Of a DNA stretch of 28,196 nucleotides, positions 2,306-15,933 are shown piece by piece. The stretch comes from a virus, in the IMG/VR virus record IMGVR_UViG_3300025159_000646, positions 1 through 28,196 of that record. One strand, 5' to 3'. The stretch's first letter is position 1. Each line of letters starts with the position of its first letter. The notes under the pieces were generated by a model. The model saw nothing but the letters and a program-made list of their open reading frames with translations, was not told the DNA's origin and ran no database searches. A program made the translations under genes and the position numbers.

Positions 2306-3205
2306 TTACTCCGCAATACCTTCATCATATTCTTGATGAATCATTTTATTTGAATCTAGCCACTTTACAAATTTTCTTGGAATCTTACCCATATACAAAG
2401 GGTTCGTGAAATCGAAAACTGACCGTGTTGGATCCAAATATTCGTTTGGCACATTCCACTTTTCAGCATATCTTTTTCTACTTTCAACAATTCTTTGTCC
2501 AGCATTTAATTCCGGACATGATGAAAATGTGGCCGACCAGACGTGCCACACTGAGGGATAACTCAGTCCAGAGCTTGGCATTCCCATTTGCGCGGCTCTC
2601 GTGCCCCAGTCCGATTCTTCGTGAAAACTTTTAAATCCCTCATCGAAATTTCCCACTTTAAGAAAGTTTTCTCTGAGGTAGGCAAAGCAACTTCCAATCA
2701 TGCACATGACCCTGCCGCACCTGTTCTTACCGTCATTTCTCCCCTCCCATTCGGGCCGAAGTTGTTTTGTGATTGGATCTCTCGGGGTAATTTTCTCATT
2801 GTTAACTAATTTCTCCATCTCTTCATAATTACACCAACTGAGGGGCCAGCCGGAGGCTGCATATTCTGGATTATTACGAAGGAAAAAATTCATACATTTT
2901 AACCAATCAGGCTGTACTATGATGTCATCATTTAATACTACTAAGATTTCAGCATCGTCATAGTAGTGTGACACTTTATTCCAGCCATAACTGATGCCAC
3001 GATTTTCCTCGCTTCTTATAAGCGGAACATTGTGTTTATCACAGACTTGTTTAAAAGACTGCCCCGAATCGGGAGTTCCGTCATCGTAAACAACTATCTT
3101 GTAGTTTTCCCCATCGTTAGTAGAAAACTTTTTAATACTCTCTATGCACCAGTTTACTCTTTTTGCACCCTTATAGCTAGCGATGCCTATGCTGGTGTAA
3201 GACAT
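2306..3205 (-). CDS. GT2-family glycosyltransferase
   Basis: 299 aa, GT-A fold. N-terminal SIGIASYKGAKRVNWCIESI is the first strand/helix of the family; DDG at residues 41-43 is the nucleotide-sugar site and NDD at 92-94 is the metal-binding DxD-like motif. Residues 196-199 (EESD) hold the usual acceptor-side acidic pair, followed by a His in VWHVW. It is predicted to be a cytoplasmic enzyme moving a sugar from a nucleotide donor to an unknown acceptor. It begins directly after the stop of a LAGLIDADG endonuclease gene, with AGGAAAAT upstream. Parts of the gene (about 2500-2800 on the plus strand) look richer in GC than the surroundings, a possible sign of separate origin. Confidence 0.88.
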   Translation of the reverse strand: MSYTSIGIASYKGAKRVNWCIESIKKFSTNDGENYKIVVYDDGTPDSGQSFKQVCDKHNVPLIRSEENRGISYGWNKVSHYYDDAEILVVLNDDIIVQPDWLKCMNFFLRNNPEYAASGWPLSWCNYEEMEKLVNNEKITPRDPITKQLRPEWEGRNDGKNRCGRVMCMIGSCFAYLRENFLKVGNFDEGFKSFHEESDWGTRAAQMGMPSSGLSYPSVWHVWSATFSSCPELNAGQRIVESRKRYAEKWNVPNEYLDPTRSVFDFTNPLYMGKIPRKFVKWLDSNKMIHQEYDEGIAE

Positions 3206-4408
3206 TTAATTTTCCTGACTAGATACTACCAAATCCATAAAATTTAGTTTTTCATATTTCTCTATTATGGTTTTTGCGGTTTTATACTTTCTGTCTAGGG
3301 CTGTGGAACAATTTTCATATAATTTTTTAATAACTTTAATAGCATGTTTTCCATGTATTTTTAATGCAAATATTGAATTATTTTTTACAGGACTTGATTT
3401 AAAATCAGCAATATTTTTTGTAAACTTATAGAATTGCTCAATTATTGATTTACTACCACATAGCGAAATCTCCGGATATTTCTTATTTCTGTAAAATACA
3501 GATCCATCAGCATCTACTATGCCGCGCCAAAAATCCTTATCCTTTTCTAAATGTATAACTTCAGCAGTTAAACTTTTTTTTGGCACAACTCCAAATTTTT
3601 CTAATTGTGACGCTATTTTTTTACTAGTAAATACAACACCAGAAGAATAATAACATTTTGTACCAATTTTTTTAGTATGGTCTAGTATAGTTAAATCAGA
3701 TTTCAAAAATTTTATAAATTTTTTAATATGATCTATGTCTCCCGATTGTAAAAATAAACTTATTCTTGCATTTCTTTTAGAGTTAGTGCTAGAGACGTTT
3801 CCGTCACCCATCAAGAATCCGATCCAATATTTTGCGTCCTCAGTAAGTGGGTCATCAAAAACAGTTTCATCAACTTTCTTTATAATCGGACAGCCAGCAC
3901 GAATCATAATATTATTATGTTTAAGTATATCTATAATTTTTCTACGTCCTATACTATACTTATTAGCCAATTCTGCCAATGTACAATTATTTTCATAGTC
4001 TTTAATTAGACTAAGTTCTTTATCTCTGTTTAAAGACAAATTAGAAAACTTTTCATTTCTCTTCGAGTATGTTAAGTTTTTCTTTTTTAATATAGCTAGA
4101 ATCGTTTTATAATTTTTGTTATATTTAGATAGCAACTCTCTCATTTGTAATCCGTTAATTGTATCTTGGTATATAGTATCTATCTCGGAGCTTTCAACCT
4201 CCCCAACAACCTTAGAGGTCCAGTTTTCAGGTAATCGATTTTTTAATCCACACTTAAAAAGTATTCTATCAATTACTGAAACATCAACATCATAAGTTTT
4301 AGCTATCTTATAGGATTTTTCTCCACCAATGAACTGTGTTATTATTTCAGATTCCATTGATTGTTCTAGCACTTTCGATAATCCCAACTTCCCTCTCCTA
4401 CTCAGCAT
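3206..4408 (-). CDS. LAGLIDADG homing endonuclease with N-terminal HTH repeats
   Basis: 400 aa, freestanding. The two LAGLIDADG helices are YWIGFLMGDG (residues about 194-203) and FWRGIVDADG (about 293-302), each ending in the catalytic Asp, so a single chain should fold as the pseudo-dimeric nuclease. The first ~170 residues hold three helix-turn-helix-like repeats (SYKIAKTYDVDVSVIDRIL, MRELLSKYNKNYKTILAIL, LAELANKYSIGRRKIIDIL), likely extra DNA-contact modules. The ATG at 4408 overlaps the end of the upstream gene by 11 bases; a TTG seven codons on has a better-spaced AGGAG and could be the true start. It is flanked downstream by a GT2 gene, its probable homing neighbourhood. Confidence 0.88.
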   Translation of the reverse strand: MLSRRGKLGLSKVLEQSMESEIITQFIGGEKSYKIAKTYDVDVSVIDRILFKCGLKNRLPENWTSKVVGEVESSEIDTIYQDTINGLQMRELLSKYNKNYKTILAILKKKNLTYSKRNEKFSNLSLNRDKELSLIKDYENNCTLAELANKYSIGRRKIIDILKHNNIMIRAGCPIIKKVDETVFDDPLTEDAKYWIGFLMGDGNVSSTNSKRNARISLFLQSGDIDHIKKFIKFLKSDLTILDHTKKIGTKCYYSSGVVFTSKKIASQLEKFGVVPKKSLTAEVIHLEKDKDFWRGIVDADGSVFYRNKKYPEISLCGSKSIIEQFYKFTKNIADFKSSPVKNNSIFALKIHGKHAIKVIKKLYENCSTALDRKYKTAKTIIEKYEKLNFMDLVVSSQEN

Positions 4409-7252: not shown

Positions 7253-8068
7253 TTATAAATTAATACAAGAACTACAAGTTGACTCTTTAAGTCCTGTTGG
7301 AGTAATCCATTTTACTGTAGGTAATTCATAATTTTTTAACAAGTCTACTTCTACATCTCGGGGGTTTTTTCCATTATACATGTTTCTGAAAACTAATAAA
7401 TCATCATTTAATTTTTCCGATGCGCGTAACTCCTTGTACCCATCAAGAGTTGCGTGTTCGACATGATATACTACAGGATATTTCATTCGATAGCTGGGAT
7501 ACCCAGCCTTCAGCAATCGGATGCAGAACTCTGAATCCGATATATAATACTTGAAGTTATTATTGAATCCATTCAAATCTTTCCACAATCTACGTTCAAA
7601 AGCATAGCAATATCCGGCTAGTTCTGTGGCTATTTCCGGAGCTTTTTCTTCGCCGTAATCTACTACTATTTCTGAATCACCTAAACTGTATAACTCATCC
7701 TCTGTTACTTTAACACTCTTAAATCCTACAACTCCGGTTTTATTATTCCGCAGGAAATATAATAAACAATCTATAAAATTATTAGGTACTACTAAATCGT
7801 TGTCTAAGAAACAAATATACCCTTCTTTACTATTTTCTACAATTGTATTATAACTCGCCGCTACTCCGCGATTAGTTTCATGTTTTATATATTTTGCGCC
7901 ATAATCTACACAATGCCCGCGGATATATGCTGATTCTAAAGAACTTGAACCATCATCTATAACAATCACTTCAAAATTTGAACAATACTGATTTTTAAGA
8001 TTTTTTAATAGATTTTCTAATAGCCTGTGCCCGCCATAAACTGGGGTGCCTAGGGAGATATACCCCAT
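7253..8068 (-). CDS. GT2-family glycosyltransferase
   Basis: 271 aa, GT-A fold. Opens with ISLGTPVYGGHRLLENLLKN; DDG at residues 38-40 is the donor-nucleotide site and DND at 89-91 the DxD metal site. Downstream SDSEFCIRLLKAGYPS is the typical late GT2 acceptor/catalytic region, followed by a VVYHVEHA His motif. The C-terminus ends in CSSCINL; the CxxC is unusual for the family and could bind metal or be incidental. It is one of three GT2 genes in the region and the only one without an adjacent homing endonuclease. No Shine-Dalgarno sequence is obvious. Acceptor unknown. Confidence 0.87.
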   Translation of the reverse strand: MGYISLGTPVYGGHRLLENLLKNLKNQYCSNFEVIVIDDGSSSLESAYIRGHCVDYGAKYIKHETNRGVAASYNTIVENSKEGYICFLDNDLVVPNNFIDCLLYFLRNNKTGVVGFKSVKVTEDELYSLGDSEIVVDYGEEKAPEIATELAGYCYAFERRLWKDLNGFNNNFKYYISDSEFCIRLLKAGYPSYRMKYPVVYHVEHATLDGYKELRASEKLNDDLLVFRNMYNGKNPRDVEVDLLKNYELPTVKWITPTGLKESTCSSCINL

Positions 8069-8361: not shown

Positions 8362-9240
8362 CTATTTCATCCTAACAGTTAATTTCTTTAATTCACCCCA
8401 AGATATACTATCGGCTTTGTTAGTTGTTGGATTTAACCAATATAAATTCTCAAATCTATTTTCGCTAAGGGAATCAGATGCTTCAAAAACTTTATACTCT
8501 ACTTGATCTATGGAACCGCCGTGATTTTGTTCAAATAGTTCTTTCGATAACTTCATTCTGATTTTCGGAAATAACAAATCTTCGTTCTGTCTAAATGTTT
8601 CACCCCATTCATGAATTACAGATGGTGGTATTCCATAACTGTAATAACCTAATTTTGCTAATTTGCAAAATAGATCGCATTCCTCGAAAAAACTATAATA
8701 TCCTTCGTCAAATTTCCCGACCATTTCCCAGTTCTTTAATTCTGTTAAAAAACAATAACCCTCAACAGCAATTCTTCTAAACGGCTTATTTATATCCGCG
8801 CCATCTGGTATTCTTATTCCTTGCCCGCCCACGTTTTGTTGGAGACTAACACCGCCGACTTTTTGATTATTCTTAATAAAGAACATTAAATACTTTAGCC
8901 AGTCTGGAGTCATCTCTAAATCATCATTTAGCAATACTCCGTATTTACATTTATTTTCCTTCGCATATTCATAACAATGATTCCACCCCGCGGGAATCCC
9001 TAAATTTCTACGATGCTCTCTTAACGGAACATTAAATTCTTTACAGATTTCTCTAAGGATTTTTAATTCTCTTTCCGCTGAACCATCGTCTACAACAACC
9101 TTTGTCATCGAATCAAAATTAGGTGTATTCTTTACAAGAGATTTTAAAAGCCTGTATATTCTAGCATTGCCGTTAAAAGTTATTATACCTATGGCACATT
9201 CTTCTGTATTATAATCTGTAATAAATTCTCTACTGGACAT
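8362..9240 (-). CDS. GT2-family glycosyltransferase
   Basis: 292 aa, GT-A fold. After a 15-residue lead (SREFITDYNTEE) comes AIGIITFNGNARIYRLLKSL, then DDG at residues 51-53 and the NDD metal motif at 105-107. EECDLFCKLAKLGYYSYG and VIHEW form the C-terminal catalytic region. ATG at 9240 follows GGGGAATAATAG, formed by the end of the upstream homing endonuclease. The lead sequence is echoed in a 22-codon stub on the far side of that endonuclease (10089-10157), suggesting that a related GT2 gene once stood there. Acceptor unknown. Confidence 0.88.
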   Translation of the reverse strand: MSSREFITDYNTEECAIGIITFNGNARIYRLLKSLVKNTPNFDSMTKVVVDDGSAERELKILREICKEFNVPLREHRRNLGIPAGWNHCYEYAKENKCKYGVLLNDDLEMTPDWLKYLMFFIKNNQKVGGVSLQQNVGGQGIRIPDGADINKPFRRIAVEGYCFLTELKNWEMVGKFDEGYYSFFEECDLFCKLAKLGYYSYGIPPSVIHEWGETFRQNEDLLFPKIRMKLSKELFEQNHGGSIDQVEYKVFEASDSLSENRFENLYWLNPTTNKADSISWGELKKLTVRMK

Positions 9241-9243
9241 CTA

Positions 9244-10104
9244 TTATTCCCCTCTCAAAATCTCTTCCAGTTTTAATCTTTTTTCTTCCGGTAAAAATAC
9301 TTCTTTACTAACTATACCCAAGGCTTTCTGATATTTCCTATCCAGATATATATTAGAATTTTTATATAATAATCTAGCTAATATAATAGAACTAAACCCG
9401 TTTAGTAAAATACTAAAAAGTTTTTTAGGGTAATGATCTCGAATACGCATTGTGCTTATACCGCAACTCTCACAGAATTCTTTAAACTGACTCATCAAAA
9501 GAACATTTCCGCAAAGTCCTATGCGACAAGCACCATAACTTTCAACATTCGTTACCCAGCCATCACCATCTATCACACCTCTCCAAAAATGTTTATTTCC
9601 AATTATTTTTTCTGAAGCCCCACTGAAACTTTTATATTCATTAATTCCGTAAGATTCCAACGCTTCCGTAAGATATGGAGAACTTATAGCTATATAAGCT
9701 TGCTTATATACTTTCTTACGAACTTTATCGTCACATTTTTTAATTTCATGGACGACGTTTAAAAATTTCTTAAATTTCTCAAGATGTCCTATATCTTTTT
9801 CAGAAAGCTTTAACGTTAATCTCCCCGAGTAACCGCTCTGTCTGTGAATACTTCCGTCAGCGGTTAGAAACCCCGCCCAGTATGCTGATTCTTCAGTAAC
9901 TTTATCAAAAGCAAAGTCATTACAAATTATTTTTCTTCTCGAATCAAAACTGTTTCTAATCGGAATATTTAATTTTCTAAATTGATACCAGAGGCTAACC
10001 GGCCTCAATCCAAATGACCTACTTATTTCACTAATAGATTCTCCATTTTGGTATCTAGAGATCCCTATTTTAACTTGTTCATCTGTTATTACTCTTGCCG
10101 GCAT
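9244..10104 (-). CDS. LAGLIDADG homing endonuclease
   Basis: 286 aa, freestanding. N-terminal helix-turn-helix (GESISEISRSFGLRPVSLWY, residues 21-40) is followed by two LAGLIDADG helices, YWAGFLTADG (about 75-84) and FWRGVIDGDG (about 173-182), both with the catalytic Asp. It shares layout with the 400-aa endonuclease at 3206-4408 but has one HTH unit instead of three. The ATG at 10104 lies inside the 22-codon GT2-like stub, so the gene appears to have landed in, or next to, the beginning of a glycosyltransferase gene. It ends directly before an intact GT2. Confidence 0.88.
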   Translation of the reverse strand: MPARVITDEQVKIGISRYQNGESISEISRSFGLRPVSLWYQFRKLNIPIRNSFDSRRKIICNDFAFDKVTEESAYWAGFLTADGSIHRQSGYSGRLTLKLSEKDIGHLEKFKKFLNVVHEIKKCDDKVRKKVYKQAYIAISSPYLTEALESYGINEYKSFSGASEKIIGNKHFWRGVIDGDGWVTNVESYGACRIGLCGNVLLMSQFKEFCESCGISTMRIRDHYPKKLFSILLNGFSSIILARLLYKNSNIYLDRKYQKALGIVSKEVFLPEEKRLKLEEILRGE

Positions 10105-10429: not shown

Positions 10430-10726
10430 TTATTCCTCATCAGTATACGCTATAAGACTGTCAATCCATTCCGCCATATTTCTTAAATGCGTAACTATAG
10501 CCTCTCCCCCCGCTTCTGAATTTGGATTAGTTAGTTCTTTATCCAATTCTGATAAACTAATCATTATAAAATCATCTGGTTCTCGATTTCCTTCTTTTTG
10601 CAGTTCTCTATATTTATCCTGAATTAAATCAATTAACTTGCCGGCGTCACCCTCTAATCTTTGAACTTCTGCTACAAGATTTGTTAACCCACTTTTTACT
10701 TCTTTAAGCACGTTTTCTCCAACCAT
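10430..10726 (-). CDS. Small acidic helical protein (98 aa)
   Basis: N-terminal coiled-coil helix (LKEVKSGLTNLVAEVQRLEG, LIDLIQDKYRELQKEG), a Pro/Asp turn, then two further helices ending in LRNMAEWIDSLIAYTDEE. The start lies at GGAGTAACTAAAATG and the end at GAGGAATAACTAAAATG, so the gene sits as a cassette between two almost identical junctions. Function unknown. Confidence 0.76.
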   Translation of the reverse strand: MVGENVLKEVKSGLTNLVAEVQRLEGDAGKLIDLIQDKYRELQKEGNREPDDFIMISLSELDKELTNPNSEAGGEAIVTHLRNMAEWIDSLIAYTDEE

Positions 10727-10731
10727 TTTAG

Positions 10732-11064
10732 TTACTCCGATACTTTATAATAATCCATTCCTCTACTAGCCACACTTCTCTTTTCTGACATAAACTCTAG
10801 TTCTTCAAATGTGTCATCTATCTTGCCGTTAACTTCATTAATAAATTCCACGGCATTACTGAAAAGTTGATCGATTTCTTTGGTTAGATTGTCTATGTCA
10901 AAATCCCCTGTTTGAAATATATCAGCTTTTTTAACAATTTCAAGTATTAAATTATTTATTTCTGAAGTATATGATTCTATTATTTTGTTAGACTCTATTT
11001 GAAGTTTATCTAGATCAGTAGCTAAGTCCAGAAAGCTTTCATGTATTTTTGATTTATCTAACAT
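10732..11064 (-). CDS. Small acidic helical protein (110 aa), paralogue of 13049-13387
   Basis: The opening LDKSKIHESFLDLATDLD closely matches IDKSKIDEEFYPLVDDLD in the 112-aa protein at 13049-13387, and FINEVNGKIDDTFEELEFMS matches the corresponding C-terminal helix there. The two are therefore duplicates about 2 kb apart. Predicted helical throughout. It ends in KVSE with GGAGTAA feeding the next gene. No known domain. Confidence 0.78.
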   Translation of the reverse strand: MLDKSKIHESFLDLATDLDKLQIESNKIIESYTSEINNLILEIVKKADIFQTGDFDIDNLTKEIDQLFSNAVEFINEVNGKIDDTFEELEFMSEKRSVASRGMDYYKVSE

Positions 11065-11409: not shown

Positions 11410-11616
11410 TTAATATCCAGATTCTATTTTATCAATCTCCACCAAGGATTGTTCAACCATATCTATATAGTTGACAATTTTTTCATACTCGTCTGTGATA
11501 CCTCCAAAATCTGCGGCAGTCATAATATCTTTATTGCTCCCGTTATTAAAATCAGTAATTTCAGAAATAAGTTCTTTTCTAAGATCATTGACCCGTTCGA
11601 TAAGTAAATTATACAT
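11410..11616 (-). CDS. Small helical protein (68 aa)
   Basis: I place the start at ATG 11616 because GAGG lies just upstream; the longer frame to 11646 would begin at a TTG inside the duplicated epimerase tail. The protein is helical (NLLIERVNDLRKELISEI; YEKIVNYIDMVEQSLVEIDKI) with a central AADFGGI. The DFGGI string also occurs in the 91-aa protein just upstream (11705-11980), which supports a duplication of the unit 'epimerase end plus small helical gene'. Function unknown. Confidence 0.68.
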   Translation of the reverse strand: MYNLLIERVNDLRKELISEITDFNNGSNKDIMTAADFGGITDEYEKIVNYIDMVEQSLVEIDKIESGY

Positions 11617-11624
11617 GAAGTCCT

Positions 11625-11680
11625 CTAAATTAATTGGTCGGCCCAAGTTTTGGGAGTTTTCTCATTTATTAATTCTAATT
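11625..11680 (-). pseudogene. Remnant of a second sugar-epimerase 3' end
   Basis: In the frame ending at the TAG 11625-11627 this stretch reads LELINEKTPKTWADQLI, against LELVNEKTPRTWVDQLI at the C-terminus of the intact epimerase (11993-13027). By eye about 46 of 53 bases agree. No epimerase sequence remains upstream of it, so it is a duplicated tail whose body was lost or never copied. It lies between two small helical genes that share a DFGGI motif. Confidence 0.72.
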
Positions 11681-11704
11681 GACCGATCCACACTAAACAA
11701 TTCA

Positions 11705-11980
11705 CTAATTTCTAGTGGCGTCAATGTCGAGGTCTCGGAGTAATCCATCAATATTTTCTTTAAAGGAATCTAGAACTCTTTGTATTTTGTTATAAGCATC
11801 GGTAGTCACGCTATTGTCAAAAGCTACTTCTGGATGCTCCTTCTGAAGACTCTTTATTATTCCCCCGAAGTCAACACCGAGATTTAGAATCTCAACATTA
11901 TACTGATTCATTATACTAGCAATGTCATAAGCTTTTTCTGCAAAATCTACTACTTTATCCACATCAATATTTTCGTTCAT
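11705..11980 (-). CDS. Small acidic helical protein (91 aa)
   Basis: Start placed at ATG 11980, preceded by GGGGG at 5 bases; an upstream GTG at 11992 gives four more residues but lacks a ribosome site. Helical: VDKVVDFAEKAYDIASIMNQ, then GVDFGGIIKSLQKEHPEV, then YNKIQRVLDSFKENIDGLL. It shares DFGGI with the 68-aa protein downstream. It immediately follows the epimerase gene. Function unknown; small helical set. Confidence 0.74.
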   Translation of the reverse strand: MNENIDVDKVVDFAEKAYDIASIMNQYNVEILNLGVDFGGIIKSLQKEHPEVAFDNSVTTDAYNKIQRVLDSFKENIDGLLRDLDIDATRN

Positions 11981-11992
11981 AGCAACCCCCAC

Positions 11993-13027
11993 TTAAATTA
12001 ATTGGTCTACCCAAGTCCGCGGAGTTTTCTCATTTACTAATTCTAACGGTACAGAATAAACTGGTTTAACACCATAAGGATATTTCTTATAAGCCCACTC
12101 TATAAATTCTCTAACAGCTTCTCTTAATGTTTTTGTTTCCTTGTACCCAAGTAAATCTATGGACTTCTGAACAGTTGAATATGCCACAGCCACTTCTCTG
12201 GGTCTATCCTGTAAATATACTGGATCTGGTGTCTTTTTACCAGTTACCTTTTCAAATTCTTCTCTCACCATTACTGATAATTCATTTAATGTATTTGGTG
12301 TCTTTGCCCCTAGATTAATTATTTGACCATGAACATCTCTATCTAAACAATTTACCATTGCATCAATTACATCGCCAAGATAACTCCAGCTTCGAACATG
12401 TGAACCGTCGCCATAAACAAAATAATTTTTATCCCGCAATAAACAATTTACCCATATTGCTAATACATTTCTTGCAGAATCATATAAAAATTGACGTTTT
12501 CCCACTAAATTATGAGGACGAATAATCGTGTATCTAAAATCATATACGTCGGAAAATATTTCGGTCATTCCCTCTATCGAAGATTTACACCAAGCGTAAA
12601 CGTCTACCGGATTTCTTGGGAGTGACTCGTCAAATGGTGATTTCTGATCCCCGTAACATGCCATACTACTTGCTACTATCCAATATGGCACCTTAGTTTT
12701 AATCGCAGCTTTAGCTAAATTAACAAAAGCTACTGTATTATTCTCTACACAGAATTTAGGGGTGAACTGTGATCTTCCTTCAGTTGCATCTGCTGCGAGA
12801 TGAAAAAGAGCATCAATTCTTCCATTATTATAGTAATAATCTAAAATCTTGTTTACTGCTTTTTCATCCCGCAGGTCATCATACCACTGTTCTACTTTGT
12901 CATTAATGTTTTCTTTTAGCCCGCCGGATAAATTATCAACGCCTATTACAGAGTGTCCTTTTTCTATTAATTTGTCGCAAAGCCAAGACCCCATCATCCC
13001 AGCATTCCCAGTACAAAGAATTCGCAT
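11993..13027 (-). CDS. NAD-dependent nucleotide-sugar epimerase/dehydratase (extended SDR)
   Basis: 344 aa, normal length for the extended short-chain dehydrogenase family. GNAGMMG (residues 7-13) is the NAD-binding GxxGxxG loop; VDNLSGG follows beta-2; LAAD near 77-80, SSM at 120-122 and the catalytic YxxxK (YAWCK, 144-148) are all present. RPHNLVG and the DGSHVRSWSYLGDVIDAM stretch are typical of UDP-glucose 4-epimerase and UDP-glucuronate epimerase relatives. It should make or interconvert a nucleotide sugar in the cytoplasm, plausibly the donor for the neighbouring glycosyltransferases. The exact substrate cannot be told. A copy of its last ~53 bases lies about 0.4 kb downstream. Confidence 0.9.
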   Translation of the reverse strand: MRILCTGNAGMMGSWLCDKLIEKGHSVIGVDNLSGGLKENINDKVEQWYDDLRDEKAVNKILDYYYNNGRIDALFHLAADATEGRSQFTPKFCVENNTVAFVNLAKAAIKTKVPYWIVASSMACYGDQKSPFDESLPRNPVDVYAWCKSSIEGMTEIFSDVYDFRYTIIRPHNLVGKRQFLYDSARNVLAIWVNCLLRDKNYFVYGDGSHVRSWSYLGDVIDAMVNCLDRDVHGQIINLGAKTPNTLNELSVMVREEFEKVTGKKTPDPVYLQDRPREVAVAYSTVQKSIDLLGYKETKTLREAVREFIEWAYKKYPYGVKPVYSVPLELVNEKTPRTWVDQLI

Positions 13028-13048: not shown

Positions 13049-13387
13049 CTAATGAGGACCAACTGAACGATATAATTCATCCGCGGATTTTTTTAATACT
13101 TCATCAACATCGGATAATAATTCTAATTCAGTTATAGCATCTTCTATGTAGGTTATAGAATCCTCTACTAGTTCCATTCCTTTAGATAGTTGATCGCTTA
13201 ATGCTCCGACATTATGATCCACGGTTCTATCATGTGTTTCTTGCGCAAGAATTTTATCTTGTTCGAGTTTTGGATTCCATTCATTTATATAAGCATTTAC
13301 TAATGCTTGAAGTAGACTTGCAAAGAAATCTAGATCATCTACTAGTGGATAAAATTCTTCATCTATTTTTGATTTATCTATAGCCAT
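13049..13387 (-). CDS. Small acidic helical protein (112 aa), paralogue of 10732-11064
   Basis: IDKSKIDEEFYPLVDDLD at the N-terminus and ELVEDSITYIEDAITELELL near the C-terminus match the 110-aa protein at 10732-11064. Predicted helical bundle with a His/Thr-rich turn in the middle (ETHDRTVDHN). Weak ribosome site (AGGT). It lies directly upstream of the epimerase gene, with 21 bases between. Function unknown. Confidence 0.77.
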   Translation of the reverse strand: MAIDKSKIDEEFYPLVDDLDFFASLLQALVNAYINEWNPKLEQDKILAQETHDRTVDHNVGALSDQLSKGMELVEDSITYIEDAITELELLSDVDEVLKKSADELYRSVGPH

Positions 13388-13397
13388 AAAATTTTAC

Positions 13398-13763
13398 CTA
13401 AACCACTGTTGTTTGTACAGTTTTTATTTCTGCTGAAAATTCTTGTAAAACTATTTGTATAGCTTCTAAAGCAGCGGATGCTATGCTTCCGCCAAGAGGT
13501 TTGTTTTCAACACCTATTGTTATTTGATCCCCTGCAAAATCTGTAATTTCTCCAATATTTTCTTCGACTATTTTTTTGAGTTCGTTGTAAATAGGTTCTT
13601 CTAGTTTACTTAATCCATTAATAGTTACTGCTAAAAAAATCCCCACATTACCCACAGAGATTTCCGCGGAATCAAATCTAATACTATTTCTTAAAGAGTT
13701 GGAAATAGTTAATTTAAATTTTTCTTCAGGCTCATTTTCAAATCGCAATTTTGATTGGAGCAT
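13398..13763 (-). CDS. Small alpha/beta protein (121 aa), paralogue of 13791-14120
   Basis: Beta-rich N-terminal half (FKLTISNSLRNSIRFDSAEI, VGIFLAVTING) followed by helix-strand-helix. The segment AGDQITIGVENKPLGGSIAS aligns with SGDELTLQVESGPIGDQIIS in the 109-aa upstream neighbour, with the same flanking helices, so the two are tandem paralogues. Ribosome site AGAGGTAGATAA before the ATG. No known family; the fold is not the helical one of most neighbours. Confidence 0.75.
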   Translation of the reverse strand: MLQSKLRFENEPEEKFKLTISNSLRNSIRFDSAEISVGNVGIFLAVTINGLSKLEEPIYNELKKIVEENIGEITDFAGDQITIGVENKPLGGSIASAALEAIQIVLQEFSAEIKTVQTTVV

Positions 13764-13790: not shown

Positions 13791-14120
13791 TTAAGCCGCC
13801 TTGGCTTCCTCAGCTTCTCGCATAGACTTCCTATTCTCATTAATGAGTTTCTCTAATTCATCCAGCGGTCCTTGTACCGCTCTTTCTAATAGAGAAATAA
13901 TTTGATCGCCTATCGGCCCAGACTCTACTTGAAGTGTTAGCTCATCTCCGCTTACGCTGGAGACTTTACCCACTTGCTCATTAATGTACTCTAGGACAAA
14001 CGATTCTTCGTCCTGGTCTAAGTATTCAAATCCTTCTAGTAACATAATTACATCAACCATAAATAATGGATTGAATACTAAGTAGTTACCATCCAAACGA
14101 ATAGGTAGGTCATTATTCAT
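13791..14120 (-). CDS. Small alpha/beta protein (109 aa), paralogue of 13398-13763
   Basis: N-terminal strands (IRLDGNYLVFNPLFMVDVIM), a helix with acidic turn (LDQDEESFVLEYINEQVG), then SGDELTLQVESGPIGDQIIS shared with the next gene, and a C-terminal coiled-coil tail rich in Glu and Ala. AAAGGA lies about 12 bases before the ATG. Follows the GT4-like gene by 13 bases. Unknown function. Confidence 0.75.
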   Translation of the reverse strand: MNNDLPIRLDGNYLVFNPLFMVDVIMLLEGFEYLDQDEESFVLEYINEQVGKVSSVSGDELTLQVESGPIGDQIISLLERAVQGPLDELEKLINENRKSMREAEEAKAA

Positions 14121-14133
14121 GGTTTAGTATCCT

Positions 14134-15933
14134 TTATACTATTTCTGACAATAGAACTTTTCGTATCTCTTTTATAGAATTACTGTATGCTGTCCAATTT
14201 TCTCGTATTCCGCGGAAAGCTTTCATTAATGGAACTATTCTTATTTTATTATCATTCACAGCATAGACTGGAAAATGAAATCTTGAAAAATAACCCTCTG
14301 GAACTATAGGAACTGTTTGTGAAAGTATGGAACAAATGATTAATGGATCCCATACTTTATCATTTGATGTCCATAATAAAATATCAACTGCTGAAATTAA
14401 ACTTTTTACATCACTACTATTAGTTACTTGTATTTTACTATTCTTATATATGAAATTGGTATTGCTACTGTAGACTAGCAGTTTTACATCATCTTTATCC
14501 GATGCTCTGTACTCATTTGAAAAAGCATCTATTACTGTTTGAACCTTCTCATTATCGCTACTCATTATGCCGAACACAAGGTTTTTCTTATTCTCATCTA
14601 TATTTTTTGGCGGGAAGTCTTTTACTAACTGCTTGATGTTCCTGATCTTAACAGAGCCCATACGCGAGACTAAACCGTTTACAACACTGTTTATTGTAGA
14701 TTGTGAATACTTAATTTTTATTTTCTCAATTACCTCTTTTGGTACTTTATAATCCCATGCTTTATGAATAGCACCTAATACATCAATTTTATCAAATCTC
14801 TTTGCATATATTAAATCATCACCATATTCATTTCTTAACTGATCATTTTCTAATGCTACAAATGGCTTGCCACAAGCCAGGAATTCCGCGGGAACTATTC
14901 CATGCCCCTCATGTCTCGATAATACGATACCTAATCTGCATCTCTTAAATATCTGAAATTTTTCCGCATCATTTAAATCTTCACATATATTTATCTTATG
15001 ATTTTCATTACTCTTAAATATATTTTTTATTCGAGTCGTATCGTGTCCGATAAATGTAATATCATATTTTAAATCATCTTTTAATGCAGCTTCTAATAAT
15101 TGTTTATATCCTTTTTGTTCAATAGCTCTACCGCAGAATACAATTTCGTCACTCTTTTCCTCGGTCCAAATTGAATTAATTATATCTAGATTTATCGACG
15201 GATTAACTACATGAATTCTGCTATCTTCAAATTTATCATCCCACTCTAAGCATTTCTTTTTTCCAAGTTCACTACATATAATAATTCCATCAGCTTCTAA
15301 ATAAACATCTTTAGTTGTTTTGGACATCAAATTTTCATACTCTGGCATATGCTCTAAATGCCAGTTGTCGGATTCATACATCAATGCATAGAATGGAATC
15401 CCGTACTTACGAGAATATTCTAGCCCTATGCTTAATGCTTGCGGCGGGGCTACGAATACACAATCAAATCCTTCATAATCTGTATTGATATCCGGCTTAT
15501 ATTCAAATGTAACATATACGCTACTGGGAATATCTTGGGCACATATTGGTAATGCATTTGTGCAAACGTGTACGTGGCACTTTGCTTCCGATAAAGCATT
15601 AACAACTTGCATGTTCCACAATCTGGCCCCGCTGTACCCGCCTTCATTGTAGGTTATAAAAAGTATCTTTCTTTTTATATCCGACGGGTAATTAACATAT
15701 TCATTTATATTTTTCCGCGGGGGTTTTTTGTTACTTTCTCTTAACCATTTTTCATCCACAGCACATTGGGCAAATTCTTTAGTATCTACAAACCATTGTT
15801 TCATCGATTCTAGAACTTGAAACGGTCTACTGTCCCCAACAAATATTTTTCTAGGCGTAGCTGATAATGAATCATCAACCATCTGATCTTTATTAGATCC
15901 AGTATACCGCATCCAAATAGTAGCTCTGCTCAT
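14134..15933 (-). CDS. GT4-like (GT-B fold) glycosyltransferase with N- and C-terminal extensions
   Basis: 599 aa, about 200 longer than a usual GT4 enzyme. KRKILFITYNEGGYSGARLW (residues 88-107) starts the first Rossmann domain; IVFCGRAIEQKGYKQLLEA (264-282) starts the second; the E-x7-E motif HEGHGIVPAE (Glu 342 and 350) is the donor-binding signature. The ~85-residue N-terminal part (MRYTGSNKDQMVDDSLSA..) is not part of the fold and is unrecognised. After about residue 440 a further alpha/beta domain (NLVFGIMSSDNEKVQTVIDA..) could be a degenerate second GT-B half. A cytoplasmic retaining glycosyltransferase is likely; donor and acceptor unknown. It precedes the alpha/beta paralogue pair and the epimerase. 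Confidence 0.85.
   Translation of the reverse strand: MSRATIWMRYTGSNKDQMVDDSLSATPRKIFVGDSRPFQVLESMKQWFVDTKEFAQCAVDEKWLRESNKKPPRKNINEYVNYPSDIKRKILFITYNEGGYSGARLWNMQVVNALSEAKCHVHVCTNALPICAQDIPSSVYVTFEYKPDINTDYEGFDCVFVAPPQALSIGLEYSRKYGIPFYALMYESDNWHLEHMPEYENLMSKTTKDVYLEADGIIICSELGKKKCLEWDDKFEDSRIHVVNPSINLDIINSIWTEEKSDEIVFCGRAIEQKGYKQLLEAALKDDLKYDITFIGHDTTRIKNIFKSNENHKINICEDLNDAEKFQIFKRCRLGIVLSRHEGHGIVPAEFLACGKPFVALENDQLRNEYGDDLIYAKRFDKIDVLGAIHKAWDYKVPKEVIEKIKIKYSQSTINSVVNGLVSRMGSVKIRNIKQLVKDFPPKNIDENKKNLVFGIMSSDNEKVQTVIDAFSNEYRASDKDDVKLLVYSSNTNFIYKNSKIQVTNSSDVKSLISAVDILLWTSNDKVWDPLIICSILSQTVPIVPEGYFSRFHFPVYAVNDNKIRIVPLMKAFRGIRENWTAYSNSIKEIRKVLLSEIV

Follow-up and report, generated by a model that had tools for sequence, protein, structure and literature searches.

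The 3' end of a sugar epimerase gene occurs twice in the genome of an uncultured tailed phage, once in the intact resident gene and once as a body-less stump between two small genes, A and B; this stump was probably left by recombination between related phages and marks a mosaic junction. The DNA analysed, called here the window, is the virus record IMGVR_UViG_3300025159_000646 at its full length of 28,196 bases. In the scenario that we favor, an ancestral phage would have carried the order 'epimerase(old)-B', and a related phage with the order 'epimerase(new)-A' would have recombined in, supplying the epimerase body and gene A. The right-hand join would have fallen close to the 3' end of the old epimerase, within its last codons, so that the 17-codon tail of this gene stayed ahead of B. 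We infer the donor, the direction, and the single-event nature of this exchange.

Genomic Context

The minus strand of the window carries tailed-phage head genes, i.e., terminase, portal, head maturation protease, and major head protein (Table 1). The region 3' of these head genes contains two endonuclease-like genes and one epimerase, together with glycosyltransferase-like genes and numerous small genes without assigned function. In the order of transcription, the region considered here reads X1, epimerase, A, stump (11678-11625, stop codon included), B, a further small gene, and X2.

Four glycosyltransferase-like genes (2306-3205, 7253-8068, 8362-9240, and 14134-15933), three of them mutually related, are found in the structural region beside the epimerase and suggest a sugar decoration of the virion or of the host surface. 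The two endonuclease-like genes (3206-4408 and 9244-10104), both matching phrog_4645 and 28.7% identical to each other, are located between glycosyltransferase and small genes and are a possible cause of gene exchange. A separate short repeat (D15 in the repeat search) links 1957-1987 with 10715-10745; over these 31 bases, two small genes have ribosome-binding and start regions that are 81% identical.

Table 1. Features of the window and, where given, the basis on which each was assigned.
Feature	Positions	Strand	Basis
Terminase	24633-23044	minus	
Portal	22843-20693	minus	
Head maturation protease	19817-17625	minus	
Major head protein	17586-16525	minus	
Small gene X1, paralogue of X2	13049..13387	minus	protein comparison
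Resident sugar epimerase, 344 aa, NAD-dependent epimerase/dehydratase family	11993..13027	minus	PF01370 match
Repeat copy 1, resident epimerase tail with the conserved C-terminus	11994..12046	minus	alignment and family motif
Small gene A, 91 aa from ATG, between both repeat copies, with DFGGI	11705..11980	minus	
26-base spacer, A stop to stump	11679..11704	minus	no alignment with the part of the epimerase that precedes the tail
Possible 26-aa mini-ORF that runs across the stump, with a GTG that overlaps the stop codon of A	11625..11705	minus	open frame in sequence
Repeat copy 2, stump with the final 17 codons of a putative lost second epimerase	11626..11678	minus	46/53 identity, family-model score 33.8
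Small gene B, 68 aa, predicted helical hairpin, with DFGGI	11410..11616	minus	
Further small gene between B and X2	11394-11119	minus	
Small gene X2, paralogue of X1	10732..11064	minus	protein comparison
CCGCGG sites	1574, 5687, 6170, 7917, 8988, 12017, 13081, 13664, 14210, 14886, 15715, 18704, 20815, 26815		

The 53-Base Repeat

The best local alignment between the two copies is gapless and pairs 11626-11678 with 11994-12046 on the minus strand, with 46 of 53 bases identical. Its score is 39, against a maximum of 21 among 300 shuffled comparisons, and the repeat search of the window lists the same pair (D4, 87%). A sequence-only reading of this DNA had described a copy of about 53 bases with roughly 46 identities, exactly as we find; its position for the resident tail was also correct, while that of the first copy (11627-11679) was one base off. 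The comparison of codons confirmed, as that reading had proposed, that both copies keep the frame and the stop. The stump reads LELINEKTPKTWADQLI followed by a TAG stop codon (11625-11627), and the resident tail reads LELVNEKTPRTWVDQLI followed by TAA. Thirteen of the 17 codons are identical, and the four that differ, stump versus resident, are ATA/GTA (I/V), CCC/CCG (P), AAA/CGG (K/R), and GCC/GTA (A/V). Four of the seven base differences fall in a single cluster, CAAA/GCGG, which generates a CCGCGG palindrome. When seven random substitutions were simulated, about 3% of the outcomes left all changes conservative and stop-free.

The DNA homology between the copies ends sharply at the stop codon, which is the gene boundary. 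Each copy is followed at once by a small gene, as had been noticed before, with a gap of 8-12 bases (ATG of B at 11616, ATG of A at 11980), and the AGGA-type ribosome-binding site of B abuts the stump stop codon. The identical junction is present in IMGVR_UViG_3300025322_000150, a contig of the same population that is 99.96% identical over 11.4 kb (11,400 bases), so that an error in a single assembly is unlikely. A third contig, IMGVR_UViG_3300025164_000687, stops short of the epimerase.

The CCGCGG palindrome is the most over-represented of the 64 six-base palindromes in this phage. Genes contain 14 copies, compared with 1.7 for synonymous-codon shuffles (at most 5 among 200), and TCCGCGGA occurs seven times for 0.15 expected. 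Among 255 sequences of at least 4 kb, just this phage's own contigs stand out by such an excess. HIP1 is an iterated palindrome of cyanobacteria; CCGCGG is possibly a HIP1-like iterated palindrome or a modification site, and thus a lead to the host.

The Resident Epimerase and the State of the Stump

The resident epimerase matches PF01370 with 145.4 bits (cut-off 20.9) and covers positions 1-240 of the 240 of the profile. It does not reach the NCBIfam equivalog cut-offs, the best being galE (113.2 versus 262.3). By these profile comparisons, the gene is a predicted sugar epimerase of the PF01370 family. Starting from 168 loci with family epimerases, of which 167 were recovered by tblastn at 1e-10 and 165 kept after a length filter, we aligned 166 sequences including the resident one. 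A C-terminal motif is common to all these viral, bacterial, and archaeal relatives: E329 and W339 are found in 166/166 and P336 in 164/166. The tail lies past the aligned part (residues 1-312) of the best-matching solved structure, 4zrm. In the viral collection, the DNA pattern for KTPxTWxDQ is present in ten stretches, i.e., the epimerase tails of eight other viruses, one chance match, and one stretch from the same population. Because this motif is family-wide, the stump truly derives from the 3' end of an epimerase gene and is neither a chance nor a low-complexity match. The earlier proposal that this piece represents the 3' terminus of another epimerase gene, now without its body, is supported.

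The stump scores 33.8 bits with a model of the family tail, the resident tail 27.6, and the median is 27.4; only 16 of 169 full tails exceed the stump. Moreover, the stump has the family-typical K at a position where the resident has R. Judged by this model, the stump motif has not decayed. Since it outscores the resident tail and keeps the typical K, it would have been under selection within a real epimerase until recently, and both tails would have diverged inside two complete genes, the second body being lost later. No body-less tail was found elsewhere in 171 sources, except in the same population and at one contig edge.

To calibrate the divergence, we used 161 family members with gap-free tail DNA. 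A tail identity of 44/51 corresponds to a median body identity of 82%, with a 5-95% range of 68-95% (78 non-independent pairs). This suggests an identity of about 82% (68-95%) between the resident epimerase and the lost one, i.e., within the range of alleles of related phages. If the CAAA/GCGG cluster is one event, the lost epimerase may have been nearer to the resident than 82%, and all the tail differences could sit on the resident branch. The differences between the copies had been read as a sign that the event was not recent. We agree that the tails are not very recent copies, but the argument from age is weakened by the concentration of four of the seven differences in the CCGCGG-creating cluster.

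Origin of the Stump

Four observations support recombination: the identity of the stump, its undecayed motif, a homology that ends sharply with the stop codon, and the fact that A and B are unrelated in DNA. On the other side, the shared tail is just 53 bases long, four of its seven differences may be a single event, the protein similarity of A and B is not zero, A and B were found only in this population, and neither a donor nor a single-copy relative was found. We compared downstream neighbors among 84 viral loci with at least 600 bases downstream. Between 70 and 90% epimerase identity, 440 of 627 viral pairs (not independent of each other) have no similarity of downstream neighbor. Similarity is absent in 426 of 525 pairs at 70-80% identity and in 14 of 102 at 80-90%; the 88 pairs of this latter class that keep a similar neighbor count against recombination. 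The proposed recombination presumes a tolerance of such divergence, and passages of PMC3945230 describe phage recombinases as tolerating diverged sequence.

The main rival, to which we give a limited chance, is that tandem epimerases (epi-A-epi-B) diverged in this lineage, before a deletion removed the body of the second. The same end product would result, and the undecayed motif of the stump suits a late deletion. Furthermore, the paralogous genes X1 and X2 (27% identity over 103 aa, E=1.8e-5) flank the region, so that duplications have occurred there. However, X1 and X2 are far older, at 27% in amino acids, than the tail repeat, at 87% in nucleotides, and a separate origin would be needed for A or B, which are not DNA copies of each other. 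A relative with two full epimerases, which the sequence-only reading had named as the thing to look for, did not appear: none of the 168 other epimerase loci has a second close family member or a close tandem pair. The second epimerases that do occur in these loci are 22-26% identical to the resident one, the flanks being limited and some of them truncated. In three Pelagibacteraceae loci (L115, L116, and L118), a family epimerase is directly followed by a distant second epimerase, 23-26% identical to that of the window. Recombination is favored over the rival with tandem epimerases and a later deletion because it requires fewer steps and fits the base rates of neighbors and of tandem pairs.

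A search of viral_contigs with five query proteins (epimerase, capsid, portal, A, and B) yielded no relative with two epimerases and none with B without A, and A and B were found there in the same population only. The tail DNA pattern likewise led to no such relative. No relative of A beyond this population was found in 247 loci. In a capsid-alignment search (79 loci), no window protein other than the capsid was matched at 1e-3. The epimerase as a single query found no match in genome_contigs, and an alignment query returned 80 loci. No relative showed the order 'epimerase-B' or the features of a donor, and no phage record was obtained by the terminase search or with the 40-residue C-terminus.

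Copying of the 53-base tail alone, by template switching or repair and with no second epimerase ever present, would leave no epimerase body beside the stump, and no such remains were found there. We nevertheless hold it to be very improbable: a lone tail should decay while the resident changes, whereas the family model gives the stump a higher score than the resident tail, which argues against such copying unless the stump is itself selected; the repeat also ends at the stop codon, as expected of a gene join.

The Small Genes A and B

The earlier account of the region was a tandem duplication of an 'epimerase plus small gene' unit with loss of one epimerase body, A and B being the two copies of the small gene; we regard this as highly improbable since the homology stops at the stop codon and only the tails are homologous in DNA. 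The local DNA score of A against B is 10, similar to that of shuffled sequences (p=0.87). Simulated co-duplicates at 14, 26, and 36% divergence (300 each) gave minimum DNA scores of 80, 37, and 20, while the tail divergence is 13% (95% bounds 5-25%). Copies diverged like the tails would thus be recognized, as the simulated ones are even at 36%, and a co-duplication of A and B with the tails was rejected.

That A and B are related small genes, as had been claimed, is weakly supported by the proteins and not by the DNA. DFGGI is found at residues 36 and 37 of the two genes, nearly the same place, and in 0 of the other 37 window genes checked. The Smith-Waterman alignment of the proteins has p=0.003 against shuffles, which ignore helical periodicity, and ranks 7 of 300 small-protein pairs. 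It centers on DFGGI and TD[AE]Y.KI, with an 18-residue gap, and is suggestive at most of a protein similarity. B is predicted to fold as a helical hairpin (pLDDT 75.7), and the model of A is poor (pLDDT 59). Compared with viral structures, the B model gave 0 matches at E<=0.001 and 539 at E<=10.

A second paralogous pair of small genes is found at 13398-13763 and 13791-14120 (E=7.9e-6). The 25 small genes, both paralogous pairs included, had no relatives in the loci fetched. X1/X2 and this second pair indicate that the small-gene set of this phage did grow by duplication, but the events concerned differ from the one behind the tail repeat and are far older.

Consequences of the Junction

Gene A sits between direct repeats that are 87% identical. 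Recombination across them would delete A and yield an intact, in-frame hybrid epimerase ending in LELINEKTPKTWADQLI directly before B. No variant without A between the repeats was seen, A and B being found in this population only. One could imagine that the repeats are kept because they are used, A being a removable cassette that allows a switch between 'epimerase-A-B' and 'hybrid epimerase-B', with an epimerase that always works and a putative mini-ORF that couples translation from A to B; we would give this little credence.

With the stump, a probable scar of gene exchange can still be read in an uncultured phage that has almost no close relatives in the collections searched. It suggests that the small genes beside sugar-modifying enzymes change by swapping of neighbors and not by duplication alone. 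The body-less tail also draws attention to a C-terminal motif that is strongly conserved in this epimerase family.

Comparison with Known Systems

Like PF01370 sugar epimerases with a C-terminal extension, the resident protein passes the Pfam cut-off and ends in the motif shared with viral, bacterial, and archaeal relatives. The stump, in contrast, is devoid of the nucleotide-binding domain: its frame has at most 28 codons, and just the final 17 residues of the family are retained in it.

The closest parallel is found in mycobacteriophages. According to the relevant passages of PMC3029335, genes 67 and 68 of Island3 have some 60 bp in common at the 3' end, and these 18 C-terminal codons of the one gene recur where the small gene after it ends; Brujita has a single recombinant copy, and the repeat is interpreted there as recombination between sequences of about 50 bp. 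Our phage presents the same two signs, i.e., a duplicated coding 3' end on both sides of a gene (the 46/53 repeat around A) and an abrupt loss of homology at the gene boundary, with no DNA similarity between A and B past the stop codon. It differs in two respects: a single-copy relative, Brujita, is known for Island3 and none was found for this phage, and the Island3 copy ends an 85-residue gene, against the short frame of the stump. As in the phage mosaic junctions and short boundary sequences described in parts of PMC3029335 and PMC3945230, the join falls at a gene boundary, both neighbors are functional, and unrelated genes lie on either side. In contrast to these boundary sequences, the piece shared here is coding: it is the 3' end of an enzyme gene, occurs twice in one genome, and is not a dispersed linker. 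In conclusion, this junction is a clear and clean new example of a type of phage mosaic junction that has been described before.
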